Shown piece by piece: positions 7,444-47,032 of a stretch of 64,000 nucleotides of DNA; positions within the stretch are counted from its first letter, which is position 1, and every line of letters begins with the position of its first letter. The stretch spans positions 124,001 through 188,000 of the forward strand of contig NZ_CANMRQ010000004.1 in the NCBI RefSeq assembly GCF_947500325.1, read 5' to 3'. This DNA comes from an uncultured Lacinutrix sp. Its GTDB lineage: Bacteria > Bacteroidota > Bacteroidia > Flavobacteriales > Flavobacteriaceae. The notes below the pieces were generated by a model. That model saw nothing but the letters and a program-made list of their open reading frames with translations, was not told the DNA's origin and made no database searches. Made by a program: the position numbers and the translations under genes.

Positions 7444-8184
7444 ATGAAAAGAATATTTGCTTTATTTTTTATTACAATCATTTTGTACAATTGTACATCT
7501 AATAAAGAAGTTCTATATAATTTTGAATCTGAAACATTAAAAATAGTACCAATAAGTAATACTATTTTTAAACATATTTCATACTTAAAAACTGATGATT
7601 TTGGTAATGTAGCATGTAATGGTATGATATATTTTAATAAAAATGAGGCTATTGTGTTTGATACGCCTACAGATGGTATTGCTTCATTAGAGCTTATAAA
7701 ATGGATACATAAAGTTCAAAAAAAGAAAATTAAAGCAGTTGTAGTAACGCATTTTCATAGTGATTGTTTGGGAGGATTAGAACAATTTCATAAGATAGAT
7801 ACAAAATCATATGCTAATAATAAGACTATTGATTTAGCTAAACAAAATAACATAAAAACCTTACCCAAAAATGGTTTTAATAATATGATAGAAATTAAAG
7901 TGGGTAAAGAAATTATTTTTGCAAAATTCTTTGGCGAAGGTCATACTATAGATAATGTTGTTGGGTATATTCCCAATGAAAAAACATTATTTGGAGGATG
8001 TTTAATTAAAACCATGAATGCAAGTAAAGGCTATCTAGGAGATGCTAATACTAATGAATGGTCTAAAACAGTAGAAGTAATAAAAAAAGAAATTCCAGAT
8101 TTAAATATTATAATCCCTGGACATGGTAAACATGGAGGAACCGAACTTTTAGATTATACAATTCGATTATTTAAAAAGCTTTAA
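7444..8184 (+). CDS. Subclass B1 metallo-beta-lactamase-like lipoprotein
   Basis: The 246-aa product starts with a signal sequence ending in the lipobox 'LYNC' (Cys17), so it is predicted to be membrane-anchored. All zinc ligands of subclass B1 are visible: H103, H105 and D107 in 'HFHSD', H167 in 'GEGHT', C186 in 'GGCLIK' and H227 in 'PGHGKHGG'. The 'GYLGDANTNEW' stretch after the cysteine is also typical of B1 enzymes. The family hydrolyses beta-lactams in the periplasm. Whether this member gives useful resistance cannot be read from sequence. Flanking genes are chromosomal and no mobile element is nearby, so it is probably an intrinsic gene. Confidence 0.85.
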   Translation: MKRIFALFFITIILYNCTSNKEVLYNFESETLKIVPISNTIFKHISYLKTDDFGNVACNGMIYFNKNEAIVFDTPTDGIASLELIKWIHKVQKKKIKAVVVTHFHSDCLGGLEQFHKIDTKSYANNKTIDLAKQNNIKTLPKNGFNNMIEIKVGKEIIFAKFFGEGHTIDNVVGYIPNEKTLFGGCLIKTMNASKGYLGDANTNEWSKTVEVIKKEIPDLNIIIPGHGKHGGTELLDYTIRLFKKL

Positions 8185-8275
8185 TAAGCTATTTAAATCA
8201 AACATAAATTTCCTTATATAATAATATTCTCCTAAATAAAATAAGAATTATCTTGCAAGCCTAAAATCAAACTAA

Positions 8276-9970
8276 ATGCCAACGCAGAAGCAAGTGAATT
8301 CCATTAATAATACAAAATATGACACAATAATTATAGGCTCTGGAGTTGGTGGCTTAGCCGCAGCAATTTGTTTGTCTAGAGCAGGTAAAAAAGTATTAGT
8401 CTTAGAACAACATGATGTTCCTGGTGGTTGGTGCCATAGTTTTTATCTTAATGGAGATCGGTTTACACCCGGAGTTCACTATGTGGGATTAGTTGGTGAT
8501 GGTTTATCTACAAGTGAATTATATGAAGGCTTAGGAATCGCGAATGACATGGCTTTCTATCGTCAAAACCCAGATGCTTTCGAGCACTGTTGGATTGGAG
8601 ATGAACGTTTTGATTATCCAGCAGATTTTAAAACATTTGAAAACCGTTTGATTGAACGTTTTCCTCAAGAAAAGAAAAACATAATCAAATATTTAAAACT
8701 AGTTACAAATGTTGGTAAACAATTGGGCTTACTACCAAAAGTGCGAGGTTTATGGCAACAAATCACAATTCCATTTCGTACAAAGCATATGGGGAAATAT
8801 GCCCCGTTTAGTTTAAAACGAGTTATTGGATGGCATATTAAAGATCCATTATTACAACGCATATTAAATATTCAATTTGGAGATCATGGCTTAGCACCTG
8901 CAAAAGCCAGCTTTGTTTTACATGCAGCTATTATGTACCACTATCATGTTGGTGGATTTTACCCAATGGGTGGTGGTGGCGCTATTGTAAAAGCGATGAC
9001 TAATGCTATAAAAACAAGAGACGGCGTTATTAAAACAAGTACGCCAGTTAAGCGCATTTTAATAGAAAATGGAAAGAAAAGAAAAAAAGCAATAGGAGTA
9101 GAGTTGGCCAATGGAGATCAAATATTTGCAAAACAGATTATATCTAATGCAGATCCTGGAATTACATATCAAAAATTAATTGGTGAAGACTATTTAAGCA
9201 ATAAACTGAAGAGAAAATTAGATAAAACCAAATACTCTTGTACATCGTTAATGCTATTTTTAACTGTTGATATGGATGTTAGAAAAGCGGGCTTAGACTC
9301 TGGAAATATATGGCGAATTCCTAATGAAGATATGGATTATTTGTATGATGACATGCAAAAGAAAAACATATTAGAAGGAGAAGAGTTTTCAGGTATGTTT
9401 ATTAGTTGCACAACACTTAAAGACCCTATTAGTTATAATGGAAAGCATCATACTTTAGAAGCTATTACATATATTAATTATGATGCTTTTGAAGATTTTA
9501 AAGATGAAAATATAGAACGTTCTGAAAAGTATTTACAATTTAAAGAAAAAATTATCGCTAAATTTCTTGTTACTTTAGAAAAAGTAATACCAGGTATATC
9601 TAATCATATAGTGCAAATGGAATTAGGGACACCTTTAACTAATGAATATTATATTAACTCAACTAGAGGTAGTGTTTATGGTACAGAGAAGAGCTTAAAG
9701 CATATAGGACCTTTTGCTTACAAATCTAAAAGTGAAATTGAGAATTTGTATATGTGTGGAGCAAGTATTGTTTCCCATGGCGTTGCAGGAGCTAGCTACT
9801 CTGGAGTACAAACAGCAGCAGCAATTTTAGGTTGCCGTCAAGATGACCTAATAAAACCTAATCCAGATCAAAAATTACGTGTTTTTGAAGCCGAAGATGA
9901 TAGTAATTACCCAGATTGGATGAGAAAAAAGATACAAATGAAACATTCAAAAGCTAAAGCAAGAATATAA
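8276..9970 (+). CDS. FAD-dependent CrtI / retinol-saturase-like oxidoreductase
   Basis: The 564-aa product begins with a dinucleotide-binding fold 'IIIGSGVGGLAAAICLSRAG' (about residues 19-38) followed by 'VLEQHDVPGGWCHSF', the arrangement seen in phytoene desaturases and all-trans-retinol 13,14-reductases. The C-terminal FAD segment 'MCGASIVSHGVAGASYSG' is present. The length and the 'GGxxYPMGGG' region fit the retinol-saturase-like branch more than CrtI proper. No other carotenoid gene is nearby, so the substrate (a carotenoid, retinoid or other polyene lipid) is unknown. Confidence 0.8.
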   Translation: MPTQKQVNSINNTKYDTIIIGSGVGGLAAAICLSRAGKKVLVLEQHDVPGGWCHSFYLNGDRFTPGVHYVGLVGDGLSTSELYEGLGIANDMAFYRQNPDAFEHCWIGDERFDYPADFKTFENRLIERFPQEKKNIIKYLKLVTNVGKQLGLLPKVRGLWQQITIPFRTKHMGKYAPFSLKRVIGWHIKDPLLQRILNIQFGDHGLAPAKASFVLHAAIMYHYHVGGFYPMGGGGAIVKAMTNAIKTRDGVIKTSTPVKRILIENGKKRKKAIGVELANGDQIFAKQIISNADPGITYQKLIGEDYLSNKLKRKLDKTKYSCTSLMLFLTVDMDVRKAGLDSGNIWRIPNEDMDYLYDDMQKKNILEGEEFSGMFISCTTLKDPISYNGKHHTLEAITYINYDAFEDFKDENIERSEKYLQFKEKIIAKFLVTLEKVIPGISNHIVQMELGTPLTNEYYINSTRGSVYGTEKSLKHIGPFAYKSKSEIENLYMCGASIVSHGVAGASYSGVQTAAAILGCRQDDLIKPNPDQKLRVFEAEDDSNYPDWMRKKIQMKHSKAKARI

Positions 9971-9981
9971 GTTGGTTTCGC

Positions 9982-10362
9982 TTATTTTATAGCAATCATA
10001 CTAATCTCAACATTAACAAACTTTGGCAGATTAGCGACTTCAACTGTCTCTCTTGCTGGTGCTGTATCATTATCAAAATACTGAGAATAAACAGCGTTTA
10101 TTTCAGCGAAATTATTCATGTCACTAATAAAAATTGAAGTCTTAACTACGTTTTCAAAAGTCATATCGGCAGCAGTTAAAACTGCTTTCATATTTTCCAT
10201 GACCTGTTTAGTTTCAGTAGCAATATCATCTAAAATTAATACTCCAGTTTCTGGATGTAGCGCTATTTGACCAGAGGTATATAATGTGTTACCACTTAAC
10301 ACGGCTTGATTGTATGGTCCAATTGGAGCAGGAGCTTTTGTAGTAGATATTATTTTTTTCAT
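9982..10362 (-). CDS. ridA: RidA-family reactive intermediate deaminase
   Basis: The 126-aa product matches the RidA/YjgF/UK114 family throughout: 'APAPIGPYNQAV' and 'GQIALHPETG' near the N-terminus and 'APARETVEVANLP' with the conserved arginine near the C-terminus. RidA hydrolyses reactive enamines and imines made by PLP enzymes, protecting other PLP enzymes. It is convergent with the oxidoreductase at 9970 (11 bp) and lies downstream of lptD on the same strand, 54 bp away. Confidence 0.93.
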   Translation of the reverse strand: MKKIISTTKAPAPIGPYNQAVLSGNTLYTSGQIALHPETGVLILDDIATETKQVMENMKAVLTAADMTFENVVKTSIFISDMNNFAEINAVYSQYFDNDTAPARETVEVANLPKFVNVEISMIAIK

Positions 10363-25918: not shown

Positions 25919-27064
25919 ATGAGAATAGGCATAGTATGCTACCCAACATTTGGAGGTAGTGGAGTAGTGGCAACAGAGTTAGGATTAGAGTTATCTAAGC
26001 GCGGACACAATATTCACTTTATAACTTATAACCAACCTGTTAGATTAGAATTATTAGGTAATAATGTACACTACCATGAAGTAAACGTACCTGAGTATCC
26101 CTTATTTCACTATCAACCATACGAATTAGCTTTATCTAGTAAATTGGTAGATATGGTTAAACTGCATAAAATAGAATTGTTACATGTACACTATGCTATA
26201 CCGCATGCCTATGCTGCTTATATGGCACAAAAAATGTTAAGAGAAGAAGATATTTACGTTCCTATTGTTACAACTCTACATGGTACAGATATTACACTTG
26301 TAGGTAACCATCCTTTTTACAAACCAGCAGTAACGTTTAGTATAAATAAATCAGATGCTGTAACTGCAGTCTCTCAAAGTTTAAAAGAAGATACGCTACG
26401 TTTATTTGACATAAAAAAAGAAATTAATGTTATCACTAATTTTATTGACATAAAGAAGTTTAAACATGACTTCACCGATTGTCAACGTGATATGATGGCC
26501 ACTCAAGATGAAAAAATCATTACTCATATTAGTAACATGAGATCTGTAAAACGCATACCAGATGTAATTAAAACATTCTATAACGTTCAAAAAGAAATAC
26601 CAGCAAAGTTAATGATGGTTGGAGAAGGACCAGAGCGAGAACCTGCAGAACGATTATGTCGTGAGCTTGGTATTTCAGAAAAAGTAGTGTTTTTTGGGAA
26701 TAGTAATGAAATTGATCGTATACTTTGCTTTAGCGATTTGTTCTTACTACCAAGTGAGACAGAAAGCTTTGGGTTATCTGCATTAGAAGCTATGGCTTCT
26801 AACGTTCCTGTTATATCAAGTAATACTGGAGGTATACCAGAAGTTAATTTAGAAGGGTTTTCTGGCTATTTAAGTAATGTTGGTGATGTAGAATCTATGA
26901 GCAATAATGCTTTAGCTATATTAAGAAACGAAAGAAAACTTAATGAATTTAAATTAAATGCTAAAATACAAGCAAGCAAATTTGCTATTGAAAATATAGT
27001 ACCTAAGTACGAAGCATTATATGAAGAAACATTAAAAACGTGCTTGTTTTCAGAAAAATTATAA
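25919..27064 (+). CDS. bshA: N-acetyl-alpha-D-glucosaminyl L-malate synthase
   Basis: The 381-aa GT4-family product opens 'MRIGIVCYPTFGGSGVVATEL', the BshA signature, and has 'VTTLHGTDITLVG' and 'LPSETESFGLSALEAMASNVPVISS' with the donor-binding glutamates. BshA joins UDP-GlcNAc and L-malate, the first step of bacillithiol synthesis. Its presence implies that this organism uses bacillithiol as thiol buffer; bshB and bshC are not in the window. The pair with the GH3 gene is common in flavobacteria. Confidence 0.95.
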   Translation: MRIGIVCYPTFGGSGVVATELGLELSKRGHNIHFITYNQPVRLELLGNNVHYHEVNVPEYPLFHYQPYELALSSKLVDMVKLHKIELLHVHYAIPHAYAAYMAQKMLREEDIYVPIVTTLHGTDITLVGNHPFYKPAVTFSINKSDAVTAVSQSLKEDTLRLFDIKKEINVITNFIDIKKFKHDFTDCQRDMMATQDEKIITHISNMRSVKRIPDVIKTFYNVQKEIPAKLMMVGEGPEREPAERLCRELGISEKVVFFGNSNEIDRILCFSDLFLLPSETESFGLSALEAMASNVPVISSNTGGIPEVNLEGFSGYLSNVGDVESMSNNALAILRNERKLNEFKLNAKIQASKFAIENIVPKYEALYEETLKTCLFSEKL

Positions 27065-40359: not shown

Positions 40360-41418
40360 ATGGCTGGAAATTCTTTCGGAAAATTATTTAATCTCACAAC
40401 ATTCGGGGAATCACATGGTATGGCAATTGGAGGCGTAATAGATGGTTGTCCACCAAATATAGCATTAGATTTTGAAGCAATTCAAAATGAAATGAATAGG
40501 CGCAAACCTGGTCAGTCTTCAATAGTAACACAACGTAAAGAACCAGACGAAGTTAAATTTTTATCTGGAATTTTTGAAGGTAAGACTACTGGAACTCCTA
40601 TTGGTTTTGTTATTGAGAATGCAAATCAGAAATCTAAAGATTATTCTCATATAAAAGATTCTTATCGTCCAAGTCATGCCGATTATGTTTATGATAAAAA
40701 ATATGGGCATCGAGATTATCGTGGTGGCGGAAGAAGTTCTGCACGAGAAACCGCTAGTAGAGTAGTAGCAGGAGCTATTGCTAAACAAGTATTAGCCACT
40801 ATTAAAATAAATGCTTTCACCTCTTCGGTAGGTGATATATTTATAGATAAACCGTATCAAGATTTAGATTTTTCAAAAATTGAATCTAATGCTATACGTT
40901 GTCCAGATACTGCAACAGCAGAAAAAATGATCACCCGCGTTAAAGAAATACGTAAAGCAGGAGATACCATTGGCGGTACTATAACTTGTGTTATTCAAAA
41001 TGTCCCTATTGGACTTGGCGAACCTGTTTTTGATAAATTACACGCCGATTTAGGCAAAGCCATGCTATCCATTAACGCCGTGAAAGGTTTTGAATACGGT
41101 AGTGGCTTTTGTGGTGCTAAAATGATAGGAAGTGAACATAATGATTTATACAATGAAGATGGCACTACTAAAACTAACTTATCTGGAGGAATTCAAGGCG
41201 GTATAAGTAATGGCATGGATATCTATTTTAGAGTGGCATTTAAACCTGTCGCAACAATTATGCAATCTCAGGACACTATAGATAAAGATGGAAATATAGT
41301 TGAAATGCAAGGCAAAGGGCGTCACGACCCTTGTGTTGTCCCTAGAGCTGTACCTATTGTAGAAGCAATGGCTGCTTTGGTTTTAGCAGATTTTTATCTT
41401 TTGAATAAAACATACTAA
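40360..41418 (+). CDS. aroC: Chorismate synthase
   Basis: The 352-aa product contains the family signatures '[17 protein letters not shown]', '[22 protein letters not shown]' and '[22 protein letters not shown]'. AroC converts EPSP to chorismate with reduced FMN, the last shared step for aromatic amino acids. It starts 112 bp after the divergent lipoprotein and is followed 17 bp later by a symporter gene. Confidence 0.97.
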
Positions 41419-41435
41419 CAAACAACAAGTTTTCA

Positions 41436-42761
41436 ATGAAAAAACTAGCATTACACTGGAAAATAATAATAGGAATGGTATTAGGTATCATCTTTGGCTT
41501 CATAATGAATACAGTAGATGGTGGAAAAGGTTTTGTTATCGATTGGATAGCGCCTTTTGGTAAAATCTTTATAAACCTTTTAAAGCTAATTGCAGTACCA
41601 TTAATATTAGCTTCTTTAATTAAAGGAATCTCAGATTTAAAAGATATTTCTAAAATTAAAACCATGGGGTTACGAACTATTATTATCTATGTTGGTACTA
41701 CTTTGGTTGCTATAATTATAGGATTGACTATTGTAAATTTTGTTGGACCTGGAAAAGGAATGCCACAAGAAACCATTGAAAAAATAAAACTTAAATACGA
41801 GAATGATGCTGGTGTGGTTGACAAATTAGCTAAAGCTTCTGCTCAACAAGATGCCGGTCCATTACAAGCACTAGTGGATATATTTCCTAGTAACATATTT
41901 ACGTCTTTAGGAGAAGCAAAAATGTTACAAGTTATTTTCTTTGCCTTATTTGTTGGTATTTGTCTATTATTAATTCCCGAAAAGAAAGCAAAACCTTTAG
42001 TTGACTTCTTCGACTCACTTAATGAAGTAGTCATGAAAATGGTTGATTTAATTATGTTATTTGCACCATACGCAGTATTTGCATTAATGGCAAACGTTAT
42101 TATTGCTTTTGATGACACAACCATTCTTGTTAAATTATTAAAATATGCAGGTTGTGTCGTTTCTGGTTTAGCTTTAATGATTGGTTTCTATCTATTTTTA
42201 ATAAAAGTATACACAAAAAAATCACCACAATGGTTTTTAAATAAAATTTCTCCTGCGCAATTACTGGCATTTTCAACCAGCTCAAGTGCTGCTACTTTAC
42301 CAGTAACCATGGAACGTGTTGAAGAGCATTTAGGTGTAGATAAAGAAGTTTCTGGTTTTGTTTTACCAGTAGGAGCTACAGTAAATATGGATGGCACAAG
42401 TTTATATCAAGGTATCGCTGCTGTATTTATTATGCAAGTAATCTGGCCAGAAGGCTTAACATTCACTAATCAGTTAGTAATTATAGCCACGGCGTTATTG
42501 GCATCTATAGGAAGTGCTGCAGTACCAAGTGCAGGTATGGTAATGTTAGTTATCGTATTAGAATCTATAGGTTTCCCAGCTGAGTTATTGCCAATTGGAT
42601 TAGCATTAATTTTTGCCGTAGACAGACCTTTAGACATGTGTAGAACAGTTGTAAATGTTACTGGAGATGCTACTGTATCGATGATGGTGGCAAAATCATT
42701 AAACAAACTGCATGAACCAAAACCTAAAGAATGGGACGATCATTATGAAGCAGTAAAATAA
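41436..42761 (+). CDS. Dicarboxylate/amino acid:cation symporter (DAACS family)
   Basis: The 441-aa product has eight or more membrane segments, the hairpin 'STSSSAATLPVTM' (serine-rich HP1) and 'VNMDGTSLYQGIAAVFI' with 'GSAAVPSAGMVML' (HP2), all hallmarks of the GltP/DctA family that takes up glutamate, aspartate or C4-dicarboxylates with Na+ or H+. It follows aroC by 17 bp and precedes the ATP-grasp gene by 61 bp. Confidence 0.93.
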   Translation: MKKLALHWKIIIGMVLGIIFGFIMNTVDGGKGFVIDWIAPFGKIFINLLKLIAVPLILASLIKGISDLKDISKIKTMGLRTIIIYVGTTLVAIIIGLTIVNFVGPGKGMPQETIEKIKLKYENDAGVVDKLAKASAQQDAGPLQALVDIFPSNIFTSLGEAKMLQVIFFALFVGICLLLIPEKKAKPLVDFFDSLNEVVMKMVDLIMLFAPYAVFALMANVIIAFDDTTILVKLLKYAGCVVSGLALMIGFYLFLIKVYTKKSPQWFLNKISPAQLLAFSTSSSAATLPVTMERVEEHLGVDKEVSGFVLPVGATVNMDGTSLYQGIAAVFIMQVIWPEGLTFTNQLVIIATALLASIGSAAVPSAGMVMLVIVLESIGFPAELLPIGLALIFAVDRPLDMCRTVVNVTGDATVSMMVAKSLNKLHEPKPKEWDDHYEAVK

Positions 42762-42822: not shown

Positions 42823-43860
42823 ATGAATGTATGCTTTTTAATGTATCCTTGGGAAGAAATAGATCCTGAAAACGATACAAGTTTAGCCTTGATAAAAGAA
42901 TGTGTTAAGCGAGGTCATGGTGTCGCTATATGTACGCCAGCAAATTTAACTATTAGAAATAGTGTAACAAATGCTTTTTGCACCGTTATTGGTCGTATGG
43001 AAAAGGTGCCAACAACCTTAAAAGCGTTTTATAAAAAAGCGACTCTACGAGAAGAAATGTTGCCTTTGGCTGGTTTCGACACTATTTTCTTTAGAGCAAA
43101 TCCTCCGTTAGACCCTATTATGCTTAACTTTTTGGATTCTGTAAAAGATGATGTCTTTATTGTAAACTCTTTACAAGGTATGCGAGAAGCAAACAATAAG
43201 TTATATACAGCTGCTTTTGGAGATGCACATAGTAATATTATTCCTAATACACATGTGTCAAAAAACAAAAAATATTTAGTACAGCAAATCAAAGAATCCA
43301 CTGCAGATAAAATGATATTAAAGCCATTAAATGGTTTTGGAGGCTCTGGAGTTATATTAATAGAAAAATCAGCAATGAGTAATATTAATTCATTGTTAGA
43401 CTTCTATATAAGTGGAAAAGACGGTACGTCAAACTATGTAATTTTACAAGATTATATAGATGGAGCAGAGCATGGAGATGTTCGTATTTTATTGCTTAAT
43501 GGAGAAATTGTAGGAGCTATGAAACGTGTTCCTGGAAGTGATGATCACCGTTCTAATGTATCTGCCGGAGGCAGCATACAGAAACACACATTAACAAAAA
43601 CAGAAAAAGCTTTATGTAAACAAATAGGACCAAAATTAGTTAAAGATGGGTTGTATTTTGTTGGTTTGGATGTTATTGGAGGCAAACTAGTAGAAGTTAA
43701 TGTTATGTCTCCTGGAGGTATTACATATATCAATAAAGTATATAAAAACAAACGAAAAGTAGAAGAAAAAGTGATTGACTTTTTAGAAAGCAAAGTACTT
43801 GATAATGTACAGGCTTTCAATCGTCGTTCAAGACTTCGCAAAACTGTCGAAGAGGCATAG
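42823..43860 (+). CDS. Glutathione-synthetase-like ATP-grasp ligase
   Basis: The 345-aa product follows bacterial GshB along its length: 'YPWEEIDPENDTSLALIKECVKRGH', 'FRANPPLDP', 'ILKPLNGFGGSGV', 'GDVRILLLNGEIVGAMKRVPG', 'NVSAGGSIQ' and 'VGLDVIGGKLVEVNVMSPGG'. The organism appears to make bacillithiol (bshA at 25919), and no gshA is in the window, so its product is probably not glutathione. It starts a four-gene operon with the sulfurtransferase, NFGase-like and DUF1704 genes. It probably joins an amino acid to a carboxylate; the substrate is unknown. Confidence 0.88.
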   Translation: MNVCFLMYPWEEIDPENDTSLALIKECVKRGHGVAICTPANLTIRNSVTNAFCTVIGRMEKVPTTLKAFYKKATLREEMLPLAGFDTIFFRANPPLDPIMLNFLDSVKDDVFIVNSLQGMREANNKLYTAAFGDAHSNIIPNTHVSKNKKYLVQQIKESTADKMILKPLNGFGGSGVILIEKSAMSNINSLLDFYISGKDGTSNYVILQDYIDGAEHGDVRILLLNGEIVGAMKRVPGSDDHRSNVSAGGSIQKHTLTKTEKALCKQIGPKLVKDGLYFVGLDVIGGKLVEVNVMSPGGITYINKVYKNKRKVEEKVIDFLESKVLDNVQAFNRRSRLRKTVEEA

Positions 43861-43884
43861 AACAGAATTATTCACTAAGTAATT

Positions 43885-45030
43885 ATGGCTAATGTATCAA
43901 TCACAGAAAATAGTGTTTCGGCAGAATGGTTACATGATCATTTAACTGCTGAAAACTTAATTATTTTCGATGCTAGTATTCCAAAGGTTGTTGGTAATGC
44001 TTCTGAATTATCTAGCAAACAAATACCAAACGCTCGTTTTTTTGATATTAAAAAGCAATTTAGTGATACGCAAGCACCTTTTCCCAATACAATTCCTTCA
44101 GCTCAAGCATTTGAAACAGCATCGAGGAGTTTAGGTGTAAATCAAAATTCTGCAATAGTAATTTATGATGATCTAGGCTTGTATTCTAGCCCAAGAGCAT
44201 GGTGGTTATTTAAAACATTTGGTTTCAATAATGTAGCTGTTCTAAATGGCGGTATGCCGGCATGGTTATTAAAAAAATATAGAACAGAATCTAAGACTGT
44301 AAAACATGTAAATGGCAAAGGTGATTTTAAAGCTGTCTACAACCCTAATAATGTCGTTTATTTTAAATCTTTAGAAACAATATCAAAAGATGCTAATTAT
44401 AAAATTATTGATGCGCGTTCTAGCGATCGATTTAATTGTGTTGTTGCCGAACCTAGAAAAGGATTACGAAGTGGTATAATTCCAAATTCTGTAAACTTAC
44501 CATATAATCAAGTTTTAGACGGCAATATACTTAAGTCTAAAAACCAATTAGAATCTATTTTTAAAGAGCTAGCAGAAGACAAGCAACACTTAGTATTCAC
44601 ATGCGGTTCAGGAATTACAGCTTCAATTTTATCACTAGCGGCAACTATAGCTAATTATAGTAATAGCGTTTACGATGGCTCATGGACAGAGTATGGTTCA
44701 CTAACTACAAAGCAATGGAGTAAAGAAGAATTAGTTGCATACATATTATTATATATAGCAAATTCAGATTTGCATGAAACTAATGACGAAAAAGATTTTA
44801 TTATGTCTAAAGTAGACAGAATAACATTTGCAAACATTCATGCAGAGTTTGATAATGACAATGATTATCAATGTCTACAAAAAATGATTAAAGGCGTTGA
44901 AGCTAACAATTATTCTAAAGATGATTTTAACGCATTATTTACTGATATTAAATTAATGCTATATGCAGATGGAGAAGCTGTAGATATGGAAGAAGCCACC
45001 TTTATGTATTTACGTAAAATTTTAAAATAA
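43885..45030 (+). CDS. Rhodanese/3-mercaptopyruvate sulfurtransferase with C-terminal TerB-like domain
   Basis: The 381-aa product has two rhodanese-like modules. The catalytic loop is 'CGSGITAS' at C240, as in mercaptopyruvate sulfurtransferases. The inter-domain 'IIDARSSDRFNCVVAEPRKGLRSGIIPNS' is also typical. Residues ~283-381 form an added all-helical domain ('YADGEAVDMEEATFMYL') resembling TerB-type acidic repeats, which are not part of standard sulfurtransferases. The gene is 24 bp downstream of the ATP-grasp gene and 11 bp upstream of the NFGase-like gene. Confidence 0.82.
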   Translation: MANVSITENSVSAEWLHDHLTAENLIIFDASIPKVVGNASELSSKQIPNARFFDIKKQFSDTQAPFPNTIPSAQAFETASRSLGVNQNSAIVIYDDLGLYSSPRAWWLFKTFGFNNVAVLNGGMPAWLLKKYRTESKTVKHVNGKGDFKAVYNPNNVVYFKSLETISKDANYKIIDARSSDRFNCVVAEPRKGLRSGIIPNSVNLPYNQVLDGNILKSKNQLESIFKELAEDKQHLVFTCGSGITASILSLAATIANYSNSVYDGSWTEYGSLTTKQWSKEELVAYILLYIANSDLHETNDEKDFIMSKVDRITFANIHAEFDNDNDYQCLQKMIKGVEANNYSKDDFNALFTDIKLMLYADGEAVDMEEATFMYLRKILK

Positions 45031-45041
45031 TTTTTTCAGAA

Positions 45042-45869
45042 ATGGAAAGACTAACCATTCAAGACATAATAAAGAAAATAGAAGCAGAAGAAACTTTTAA
45101 TGCGGTCTCAAGCGATTATTCATTTACATTAAAAATAAGTCAATACACGCACTATGTTTGTGGTGCTATACATGATGGACATCAGTTTAGAAAAGAGTTA
45201 TGGGATAATTGCTTGCATACGGAATACGAGCGTTGGTATGAAGAAGATCCTGAAACTAAAAACATGATAGCTTCACATCCAATTGTAATTGCTGGAATGG
45301 ATTCTCGTTTTGAATATGATTTAAACCGAGCTCCAGAAGTTGCTATTTATGATGATGCTTGGGGTAAGCAACTATGGAAAACCCCTTTATCTATAGAAGA
45401 AAAAAATAAATCTTTAGCAAAACATGATGCTTTTTATAAAGTTGTACAAGCCTTAATTAACAAAATAGAATCTAAATTTGGTGTTTGTATTGTTTACGAC
45501 ATGCATAGTTATAATTGGAAACGTTGGAATAGAGAAGTACCAACCTGGAATTTAGGTACTGCAAATGTAGACAACAATCGTTTTATCAATGCTATAAAAT
45601 CTTGGAGTAGTAGTTTAAGTGAATTACAATTGCCAAATGGTATAAAATCTACCTCAAAAATTAACGATACATTTCAAGGTAATGGTTATTTTTTGAAATT
45701 TATTTCGAAAAACTTTAATAATACCTTAGTTTTGGCAACCGAAATCGCAAAAGTATACTGTGATGAGTATAACTATATAATGTTTCCAGAAGTAGTAGCT
45801 GCAGTAGAGTTACAACTTAGACAAAAATTAGTTAATCATGCTAATGCTTTTTACGAAAATCATAAATAA
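45042..45869 (+). CDS. N-formylglutamate amidohydrolase-family protein
   Basis: The 275-aa product has the motifs of the N-formylglutamate amidohydrolase fold: 'AIHDGHQFRKELWDNC', 'MDSRFEYDLNRAPE' and 'VYDMHSYN' with metal-binding residues. In HutG-type histidine catabolism it releases formate from N-formylglutamate. Here there is no hut gene, and the neighbours are an ATP-grasp ligase and a metallopeptidase, so a different N-acyl amino acid substrate seems likely. It overlaps the next gene by one base. Confidence 0.82.
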   Translation: MERLTIQDIIKKIEAEETFNAVSSDYSFTLKISQYTHYVCGAIHDGHQFRKELWDNCLHTEYERWYEEDPETKNMIASHPIVIAGMDSRFEYDLNRAPEVAIYDDAWGKQLWKTPLSIEEKNKSLAKHDAFYKVVQALINKIESKFGVCIVYDMHSYNWKRWNREVPTWNLGTANVDNNRFINAIKSWSSSLSELQLPNGIKSTSKINDTFQGNGYFLKFISKNFNNTLVLATEIAKVYCDEYNYIMFPEVVAAVELQLRQKLVNHANAFYENHK

Positions 45870-47032
45870 TGACATTGCCTGTAAATATAGCTAAATCCTA
45901 TTCAGATTTAATAAATATAGATTCCAATTTACATCACTTAGTTCAAAAAATTGAATTACTTAATTATATCAATCCTTTAAATATAGAAAGTGAGAAGAAG
46001 CTATTTTTTTCTTCGAAATATAATTATGAACCCAAATTTAAATATCCCAAAATAAGGTTTAATGGCTATGAACTTCATAGAAAGTTTTTCTCACAAAAAA
46101 TAAAGAACATAAAGGATGACCATATAAAAAGTCTTTACAAAGATATTATATATGAGTATTCTGGATTAATAGAATGTATTGAAACTATAGGTTTAGGTAA
46201 AAAATTCTACTACAACAGTTTAAAGAATTTTGGCACACCAACTGAGCGAGATATAGAAAACGCAAAATTTATTTTGCGTTTTGATGATAACGATTTTAAA
46301 GAAGATTTACTACCATTATATAATGCAGATGATGCTATAGATTATTTCAAAGAATTTTCTAAACGCTATGATTTTGAGTTTAACATAAAAAAGTCATCTA
46401 ATATTGCTGCAGCTGCCATGGTTCAAAACAATACGAAAACATTATTATTGCGTAAAAACCATAAGTATAGCAAAAACCAATTAAAAGTATTAGCAAACCA
46501 TGAGATTGGAGTGCATGTAGTTACTACGTTTAATGCTTTAAATCAACCATTGCATGTGTTTTCAAATGGTTTCCCTAATAATGTAGAGACACAAGAAGGC
46601 TTAGCTGTATATTCAGAATACAAATCTGGCTGCCTAACTATTACTCGTTTAAAAGAATTAGCATATCGTGTTATTGCAGCAGATTCTCTGGCTAAAGGTT
46701 ATAATTTCTCAGACACATTTAACTTACTACATAATCAATACAAGTTAAATAGAGACAAAGCATTTTCAATTACTTTACGTGTACATCGTGGTGGTGGTTT
46801 TACAAAAGACTTCTTGTACTTAACAGGTCTAAAAAAAGTATATGACTTTGCCAAAAACGGAAATAATCTAGATGTATTACTTACAGGGAAAGTAACTTTA
46901 GAATACAAAGATACAATCGAAAAAATGCAATCACTTGGCTTAGCTACAACCTCGAAATATTATACAGATTCTTTTAAAAACACTGCTGCATCAGATAAAA
47001 ATTTCGAATTTATATTAAATAGCTTAAAATAG
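45869..47032 (+). CDS. DUF1704 'QEGLA' family zinc metallopeptidase
   Basis: The 387-aa product has an HExxxH motif 'HEIGVH' (H211, E212, H216) and the family 'ETQEGLA' motif (E243) that probably supplies a third metal ligand. It is the DUF1704/TIGR02421 family, whose eukaryotic member MATCAP removes C-terminal tyrosine from tubulin. The start overlaps the preceding stop (ATGA-type TAATG). It is the last gene of the operon. A role as a C-terminal peptidase acting on the product of the ATP-grasp enzyme is inference. Confidence 0.85.
   Translation: MTLPVNIAKSYSDLINIDSNLHHLVQKIELLNYINPLNIESEKKLFFSSKYNYEPKFKYPKIRFNGYELHRKFFSQKIKNIKDDHIKSLYKDIIYEYSGLIECIETIGLGKKFYYNSLKNFGTPTERDIENAKFILRFDDNDFKEDLLPLYNADDAIDYFKEFSKRYDFEFNIKKSSNIAAAAMVQNNTKTLLLRKNHKYSKNQLKVLANHEIGVHVVTTFNALNQPLHVFSNGFPNNVETQEGLAVYSEYKSGCLTITRLKELAYRVIAADSLAKGYNFSDTFNLLHNQYKLNRDKAFSITLRVHRGGGFTKDFLYLTGLKKVYDFAKNGNNLDVLLTGKVTLEYKDTIEKMQSLGLATTSKYYTDSFKNTAASDKNFEFILNSLK

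Follow-up and report, generated by a model that had tools for sequence, protein, structure and literature searches.

The window analysed here is a stretch of 64,000 nucleotides from an uncultured Lacinutrix sp. (contig NZ_CANMRQ010000004.1, positions 124,001 to 188,000 of the forward strand). Positions 42823-47032 of the window hold a cassette of four tightly packed genes on the + strand, encoding a ligase, a rhodanese and two metallohydrolases. The spacers are 24 and 11 bases long and the final pair overlaps by one base, as confirmed from the open reading frame (ORF) coordinates, and this is the packing described in the first-pass annotation of this DNA. The core of the cassette consists of three of these genes, coding for the ligase, the N-formylglutamate-amidohydrolase-like enzyme (FGase) and the MATCAP metallopeptidase. 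The features of the locus are:

42823-43860, + strand: GshB-like ATP-grasp ligase of the PRK12458 family, type A, 345 residues (profile scores and an 11-sequence alignment)
43885-45030, + strand: two-domain rhodanese, 3-mercaptopyruvate sulfurtransferase-like, with a weak TerB-like C-terminus (about 44737-45030), 381 residues; accessory, not core
44602-44622, + strand: rhodanese loop CGSGITA (Cys240); CG[ST]G[ILV]TA in 23/23 orthologues
45042-45869, + strand: FGase, a metallohydrolase of 275 residues (Pfam score and AlphaFold2 model)
45171-45182, + strand: FGase motif HDGH, the likely metal site by family knowledge; conserved in 27 sequences
45498-45515, + strand: FGase motif DMHSYN (alignment)
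45869-47032, + strand: MATCAP/DUF1704 metallopeptidase, short form, 387 residues (Pfam score and AlphaFold2 model)
46499-46516, + strand: zinc-site motif HEIGVH (HExxxH), residues 211-216; HExxxH in 80/80 relatives
46592-46606, + strand: QEGLA motif, residues 242-246, with Glu243 as the presumed third metal ligand (role by analogy); xQEG[LI]A in 77/80 relatives

The gene arrangement is not due to chance, because the strong ligase adjoins MATCAP in each of the 15 genomes of the phylum sample that encode it. This sample consists of 296 genomes, and a strong ligase is defined as a match of at least 396 bits to the NF009110 model. Any match to this model is found in 115 of the 296 genomes and a strong match in 15 (17 copies, the next genome scoring 214.8 bits); 14 of the 15 pass the curated NF009110 cut-off, with genome G002 (396.5) being below it. 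In all 15 genomes, which cover 14 genera and six families, the ligase and the nearest copy of MATCAP share a strand and lie within 2.2 kb of each other. FGase is adjacent to both in 13 of the 15. MATCAP is present in 16 of the 296 genomes, and in this sample the strong ligase never occurs without MATCAP, but MATCAP occurs without the ligase. In a scan of genome contigs, at least 592 stretches matched, of which at least 579 encode a relative, and the best 80 MATCAP loci were analysed. These all have the short form of MATCAP (ORFs of 1155-1260 bases), and the genera named for them are, we presume, mostly Flavobacteriaceae. The ligase is present in 75 of the 80 loci, always on the same strand as MATCAP (75/75), and FGase in 76, being split over two ORFs in L067. 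The possibility that homologues of these genes are rarely neighbours elsewhere, considered in the first-pass annotation, is therefore wrong for ligase, FGase and MATCAP.

Scans of a plasmid collection gave 127 and 119 records with a match, mostly of S. meliloti, and nine records were examined. Five of these nine hold the trio of FGase, long MATCAP and ligase that is referred to below as type B (two S. meliloti pSymB records, Mesorhizobium, Shinella and Aminobacter), and in two others, Photobacterium DA100 and GJ3, a type A ligase is followed by an FGase-MATCAP fusion. A DUF413 gene precedes the ligase in Photobacterium DA100 (L154:5793-6197), and a gene annotated as maoP/DUF413 precedes the FGase-MATCAP fusion of Vibrio HDW18 (L156:5530-5889). 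A single-protein scan of viral contigs for viral carriage gave 41 pattern-matching stretches, none of which encodes a relative.

The window ligase matches GSH-S_ATP (182.6 bits) and GSH-S_N (82.7 bits) in the profile search and passes NF009110/PRK12458 (455.5, cut-off 408), in agreement with the initial assignment as a GshB-like ATP-grasp enzyme. It fails the RimK family model rimK_fam (90.7, cut-off 143.4). The two glutathione synthetase equivalog models disagree, as TIGR01380 is failed (231.2, cut-off 299.05) whereas NF003573 (PRK05246) is passed (277.8, cut-off 272). The identity with E. coli GshB is 31%, and the GshB residues R210, R225, D273, E281 and N283, which we take to be catalytic, are conserved in the cassette ligases of the 11-sequence alignment. 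The type A and type B ligases are 29-32% identical, which is no nearer than type A is to GshB. The support values in the ligase tree are 64/70 for type A, 92/99 for type B and 83/41 for type B together with E. coli GshB; the outgroup of this tree is faulty (an AstE/AspA-like neighbour ORF, not RimK), and only the companion MATCAP tree is used here.

The assignment of the third gene as N-formylglutamate-amidohydrolase-like is upheld by a PF05013 score above the cut-off (47.9 bits, cut-off 28.9) and by the fold. The AlphaFold2 model of the FGase has a pLDDT (predicted local distance difference test) of 92.1, and its nearest solved folds are 2q7s (E 7.5e-13, template modelling (TM) score 0.71) and 2odf; after these N-formylglutamate amidohydrolases, M14 carboxypeptidases are the next fold matches, at weaker scores. 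The protein is not HutG, scoring 16.7 against the TIGR02017 cut-off of 278.75. In the 27 sequences, H44 and G46 are invariant, and D45 and H47 are nearly so, and the patterns H.G[HG], SR[FY][EQ].D.NR and D.H[SCT]YN are present in 16/16 diverse cassette FGases. The MATCAP of the window scores 328.6 bits with PF08014 (cut-off 27) and misses the cut-off of TIGR02421 (QEGLA; 310, cut-off 338.65), with nearly the whole model being covered. Its AlphaFold2 model (pLDDT 89.8) is closest to human MATCAP 7z5g (TM 0.58, E 5.7e-9) and 7z6s, and M32 carboxypeptidases appear in this fold search only at E 2.5e-3 and above. The HExxxH motif, the Glu of QEGLA and an R, K-D, Y..G pattern align with human MATCAP, and the EEG motif of human TMCP1, as described in the accessible text of PMC10499314, serves as the analogue from which the role of Glu243 is assigned. 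Among the 80 best relatives, where the HExxxH and QEGLA patterns are conserved as listed above, R..GGG.TKD is found in 79/80. The profile score, the motifs and the fold confirm that the fourth gene encodes a DUF1704 metallopeptidase with an HExxxH site, as had been claimed. A divergent class of orphan MATCAP of about 425 residues, with neither FGase nor ligase as neighbour, is seen in genome G186 (L019:7931-9205) and in Pseudoalteromonas (L153:7707-8987).

The cassette is found in two types. In type A, the order is ligase, (rhodanese, TerB-like), FGase and short MATCAP, and in type B it is FGase, long MATCAP (about 610-690 residues) and ligase. The type A ligase is present in eight of the 15 ligase genomes, type B in nine and both in two (L024 and L025); in these two, a single row consists of ligase A, FGase A, long MATCAP and ligase B, with one FGase and one MATCAP. 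FGase and MATCAP occur as one chain in G045 (a genome of the phylum sample), Photobacterium DA100, Photobacterium GJ3 and Vibrio HDW18. In the MATCAP tree (22 rows), the long forms make up one clade (100/99) and the short forms another (100/100), and the fusions lie between them without forming a single clade. An apparent ligase-MATCAP fusion in G231 (a 956-residue open frame; a 914-residue ORF) was rejected, as MATCAP is encoded there in a different frame (ORF 7975-10050).

In a Pfam scan of three long proteins, the N-terminal extension of the long MATCAP had no match above a cut-off. When compared with the 16 cassette FGases, this extension has an HHalign probability of 95.0 (204 columns, most of the length); the value is 95.3 (147 columns) when query and template are exchanged and 97.1 against the eight type A FGases. 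The controls remain low: 40 column shuffles reach at most 1.9, the reversed profile gives 0.1, and the aroC, symporter, ligase and rhodanese profiles give at most 0.2. The three FGase motifs are found in 0/12 of the long-MATCAP N-terminal domains, compared with 16/16 FGases. These comparisons show the N-terminus of the long MATCAP to be a decayed FGase domain. Most type B loci additionally encode a separate, intact FGase. The fused chains and this decayed domain suggest that the two hydrolases operate as a unit.

The second gene of the locus has a rhodanese score of 84.8 bits in two stretches and does not pass the 3-mercaptopyruvate sulfurtransferase model PRK11493 (215.2, cut-off 250); the CGSGITA loop presumably marks it as 3-mercaptopyruvate sulfurtransferase-like. 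The last 97 residues have no Pfam match at E<=1, and three orthologous C-terminal stretches match TerB (PF05099) at 15.2, 16.9 and 20.3 bits, all under the cut-off of 24.4. Of the rhodanese-TerB gene proposed in the first-pass annotation, the rhodanese part thus stands, and the TerB part is weak. In the 80 best loci, rhodanese is present in 23, a separate TerB-like ORF in 14, and either of them in 28; at the nine plasmid-collection loci searched, rhodanese gave no match. Because only 28/80 relatives carry either part, both the rhodanese and the TerB-like stretch count as a local, accessory addition in this lineage and do not belong to the core, and the suggested role of the rhodanese as a core partner is not sustained. 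A TerB-like ORF with no detected rhodanese is seen in five loci (L046, L047, L049, L050 and L051).

Expression data that bear on the cassette come from Photobacterium damselae. In the accessible part of an RNA-seq study comparing 1% with 3% NaCl (PMC10308900), a "glutathione synthase GshB" (A0J47_RS17020) is 38.4-fold up, the QEGLA protein RS17025 27.5-fold, the hypothetical protein RS17005 18.6-fold and RimK 52-fold, and the low-salt-induced GshB is discussed there as a glutathione synthetase. RS17020 is probably the PRK12458 cassette ligase, since a type A ligase directly precedes the FGase-MATCAP fusion in Photobacterium DA100 and GJ3. The tags RS17020 and RS17025 do not occur in the main text of the P. 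damselae transcriptome papers PMC7396505 and PMC6312309.

The reading that we prefer, with a probability of about 0.5, is that ligase, FGase and MATCAP form a module of one ligase and two hydrolases that act on one small peptide or N-acyl amino acid. Taken alone, the existence of a ligase-hydrolase module with a shared substrate is quite probable. Given such a module, a small molecule is somewhat favoured as the substrate, because the ligase is GshB-like with a GSH-S_N domain and because the kin of FGase act on N-acyl amino acids. In this module, the ligase would activate a carboxylate with ATP and attach an amino acid, MATCAP would shorten the substrate by its C-terminal residue, and hydrolysis of an N-acyl or similar amide would fall to the FGase-like enzyme. 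FGase and MATCAP would act as a single hydrolytic unit on the same substrate, most likely roughly glutathione-sized and either a small peptide or an N-acyl amino acid, and the sulfurtransferase with its TerB-like tail would have joined the module in this lineage. What we infer in this reading is the chemistry of each enzyme and a common substrate of this size, and it is equally possible that hydrolysis comes first and ligation second.

Several observations weigh against this module. In G273, where the contig starts 2.5 kb upstream, and in G053, no FGase was found next to the ligase and MATCAP. G186, the one MATCAP genome of the sample outside the 15, encodes a divergent orphan MATCAP and has neither a strong ligase nor an FGase neighbour. 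The five loci without ligase among the best 80 are L045, at a contig edge, and L083, L093, L104 and L112, each of which has an intact lone MATCAP without ligase or FGase; the best match in a search for a strong ligase elsewhere in the latter four genomes is 59.8 bits. In the plasmid collection, the FGase-MATCAP fusion of Vibrio HDW18 has no adjacent ligase, and the Pseudoalteromonas record holds an orphan MATCAP with neither FGase nor ligase beside it. That MATCAP also stands alone speaks against a cycle that is obligatory. The closed cycle of adding and removing an amino acid, as had been proposed from the sequence of the locus, is a hypothesis that the data do not require, because MATCAP persists without the ligase (4/80 loci). 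It is possible that the two ligase types belong to different families, as type B groups weakly with E. coli GshB rather than with type A in the tree. For the decayed domain, the eight type B FGases alone give an HHalign probability of only 35.9, and the MATCAP profile gives 27.3, owing to an overlap of 46 residues between the excised domain and MATCAP. The assignment of RS17020 as the cassette ligase draws on two further Photobacterium genomes, not on P. damselae sequence. Finally, the studied relatives of MATCAP act on protein tails, according to the accessible text of PMC10499314.

This last point is shared with a rather unlikely explanation in which the cassette edits protein tails, as in RimK/RimB or in tubulin tyrosination, the ligase adding a C-terminal residue to a protein and MATCAP removing it. 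Animal and Tetrahymena MATCAP/TMCP trim tubulin tails or polyglutamate (as far as described in PMC10499314), and RimK with the protease RimB is a proven ligase/protease pair on ribosomal S6, also found as a fused RimBK (in the accessible part of PMC11957791). The window MATCAP also keeps the HExxxH, Glu, R, K-D, Y..G pattern of human MATCAP. However, the ligase is GshB-like with GSH-S_N and fails the RimK model, MATCAP is retained without the ligase in 4/80 loci, and no protein-tail target was found. FtsZ was tried as tail substrate and rejected, because its C-terminal ends do not vary with the cassette (FLHDNVD in 11/15 cassette genomes and in 11/15 without the cassette). It is decidedly unlikely that the cassette is a bacterial counterpart, and possibly the ancestor, of the tubulin tyrosination cycle, in which the ligase would write and MATCAP erase a C-terminal residue of a protein at low osmolarity, with FGase as a helper that would be active in one form and a decayed scaffold in the other.

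A glutathione-like thiol pathway, with the ligase producing a thiol peptide that is recycled by the hydrolases and that gains or loses sulfur through the rhodanese, would agree with the GshB-like ligase and with the sulfurtransferase loop, which is conserved in all 23 orthologues and encoded in the same gene row in this lineage. It is nevertheless improbable when considering that the rhodanese is present in only 23/80 relatives and has no match at the nine plasmid-collection loci, and that five loci hold a TerB-like ORF without a detected rhodanese. In addition, the window encodes the bacillithiol glycosyltransferase BshA (about 25919-27034, 565.9 bits), bshC is found on contig C7, and no GCS2 or Glu_cys_ligase match, the families of gamma-glutamylcysteine ligase, was found at E<=0.001 in the genome of the window (99.99% complete). 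Glutathione synthesis by the cassette ligase is unlikely because this ligase family is not found and bacillithiol genes are present, as the first-pass annotation had anticipated from bshA. The gshA gene that, according to that annotation, would together with glutathione have marked the enzyme as plain GshB was looked for and not found. The same finding bears on the view that the gene encodes an ordinary glutathione synthetase beside unrelated genes. The annotators of the records label it glutathione synthase or synthetase and the NF003573 cut-off is passed, but TIGR01380 is failed, the PRK12458 score is far higher and the ligase adjoins MATCAP in 15/15 genomes, which makes this view very improbable.

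A wider operon that includes the upstream Na+/dicarboxylate symporter gene (41436-42761), with an imported dicarboxylate or amino acid as substrate, is hardly credible. The symporter is present in 66/80 of the best loci, with a gap to the ligase of only 11-20 bases in several of them. However, the adjacency of aroC and symporter also stands without the cassette: in the best 30 of 59 aroC loci the symporter is found in 27/30 and the ligase is visible in 5, a count limited by the view, which ended roughly 100 bases past the symporter. In several Aquimarina loci, the cassette is present and there is no symporter within the stretch examined. The symporter was rejected as a partner of the cassette, since the aroC-symporter synteny exists without it. 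In the window, aroC and the symporter (40360-42761) form a pair that is conserved in the family, with or without the cassette.

The nearest proven pair of the working type proposed for the three-enzyme module is RimK/RimB. In rimABK of Pseudomonas, an ATP-grasp ligase is encoded with an antagonistic hydrolase and is fused with it in some genomes (in the accessible parts of PMC11957791 and PMC12239564). The cassette likewise pairs an ATP-grasp amino-acid ligase with hydrolase genes, but RimB is a retropepsin-like aspartic protease that targets S6 and poly-glutamate, whereas the cassette hydrolases are metallohydrolases (PF08014 and PF05013), and the cassette ligase is below the rimK_fam cut-off. 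On contig C2 of the window's genome (L003:445-2292), a RimK-family ligase (PF18030, PF08443) abuts an AstE/AspA-type deacylase (PF24827, 110 bits), which is a second ligase-deacylase pair in this genome. The window MATCAP shares PF08014, HExxxH, the third Glu and the 7z5g and 7z6s folds with human MATCAP/TMCP (KIAA0895L, KIAA0895), but it is only 16-19% identical in the fold alignments and is encoded with a ligase. Similarly, the cassette ligase resembles GshB in its conserved residues and differs from it in its PRK12458 family, its MATCAP neighbour and the genome in which no gamma-glutamylcysteine ligase was found. The cassette FGase shares PF05013 and its fold with HutG (2q7s, 2odf), but it fails the HutG model, is 15% identical to 2q7s and is linked to MATCAP.

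A neighbourhood survey by Iyer et al. in 2009 reportedly describes ATP-grasp ligases encoded with peptidases and may already list the cassette. To our knowledge, the bacterial kin of animal MATCAP have no assigned job, and we know of no experiment on the cassette. No description of a ligase-FGase-MATCAP module is among the matches listed in the literature listings searched, which are partly incomplete. A search for DUF1704 with ATP-grasp gave none, DUF1704 alone gave a malaria genome paper, and QEGLA gave PMC10308900. The main text of the 2023 MATCAP family paper (PMC10499314) does not contain "prokaryot", "DUF1704" or "QEGLA". Each of the component families is known. These searches gave no earlier account of the decayed FGase domain, the fusions, the two cassette types or the low-salt link.

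Since the Photobacterium gene labelled GshB is probably the cassette ligase, and this ligase is labelled in the same way on rhizobial plasmid records, both sets of GshB labels are likely misleading. The decayed FGase domain predicts a physical complex of FGase and MATCAP. With a ligase and an amidohydrolase as conserved partners, the orphan MATCAP family becomes a three-enzyme module that can be tested.

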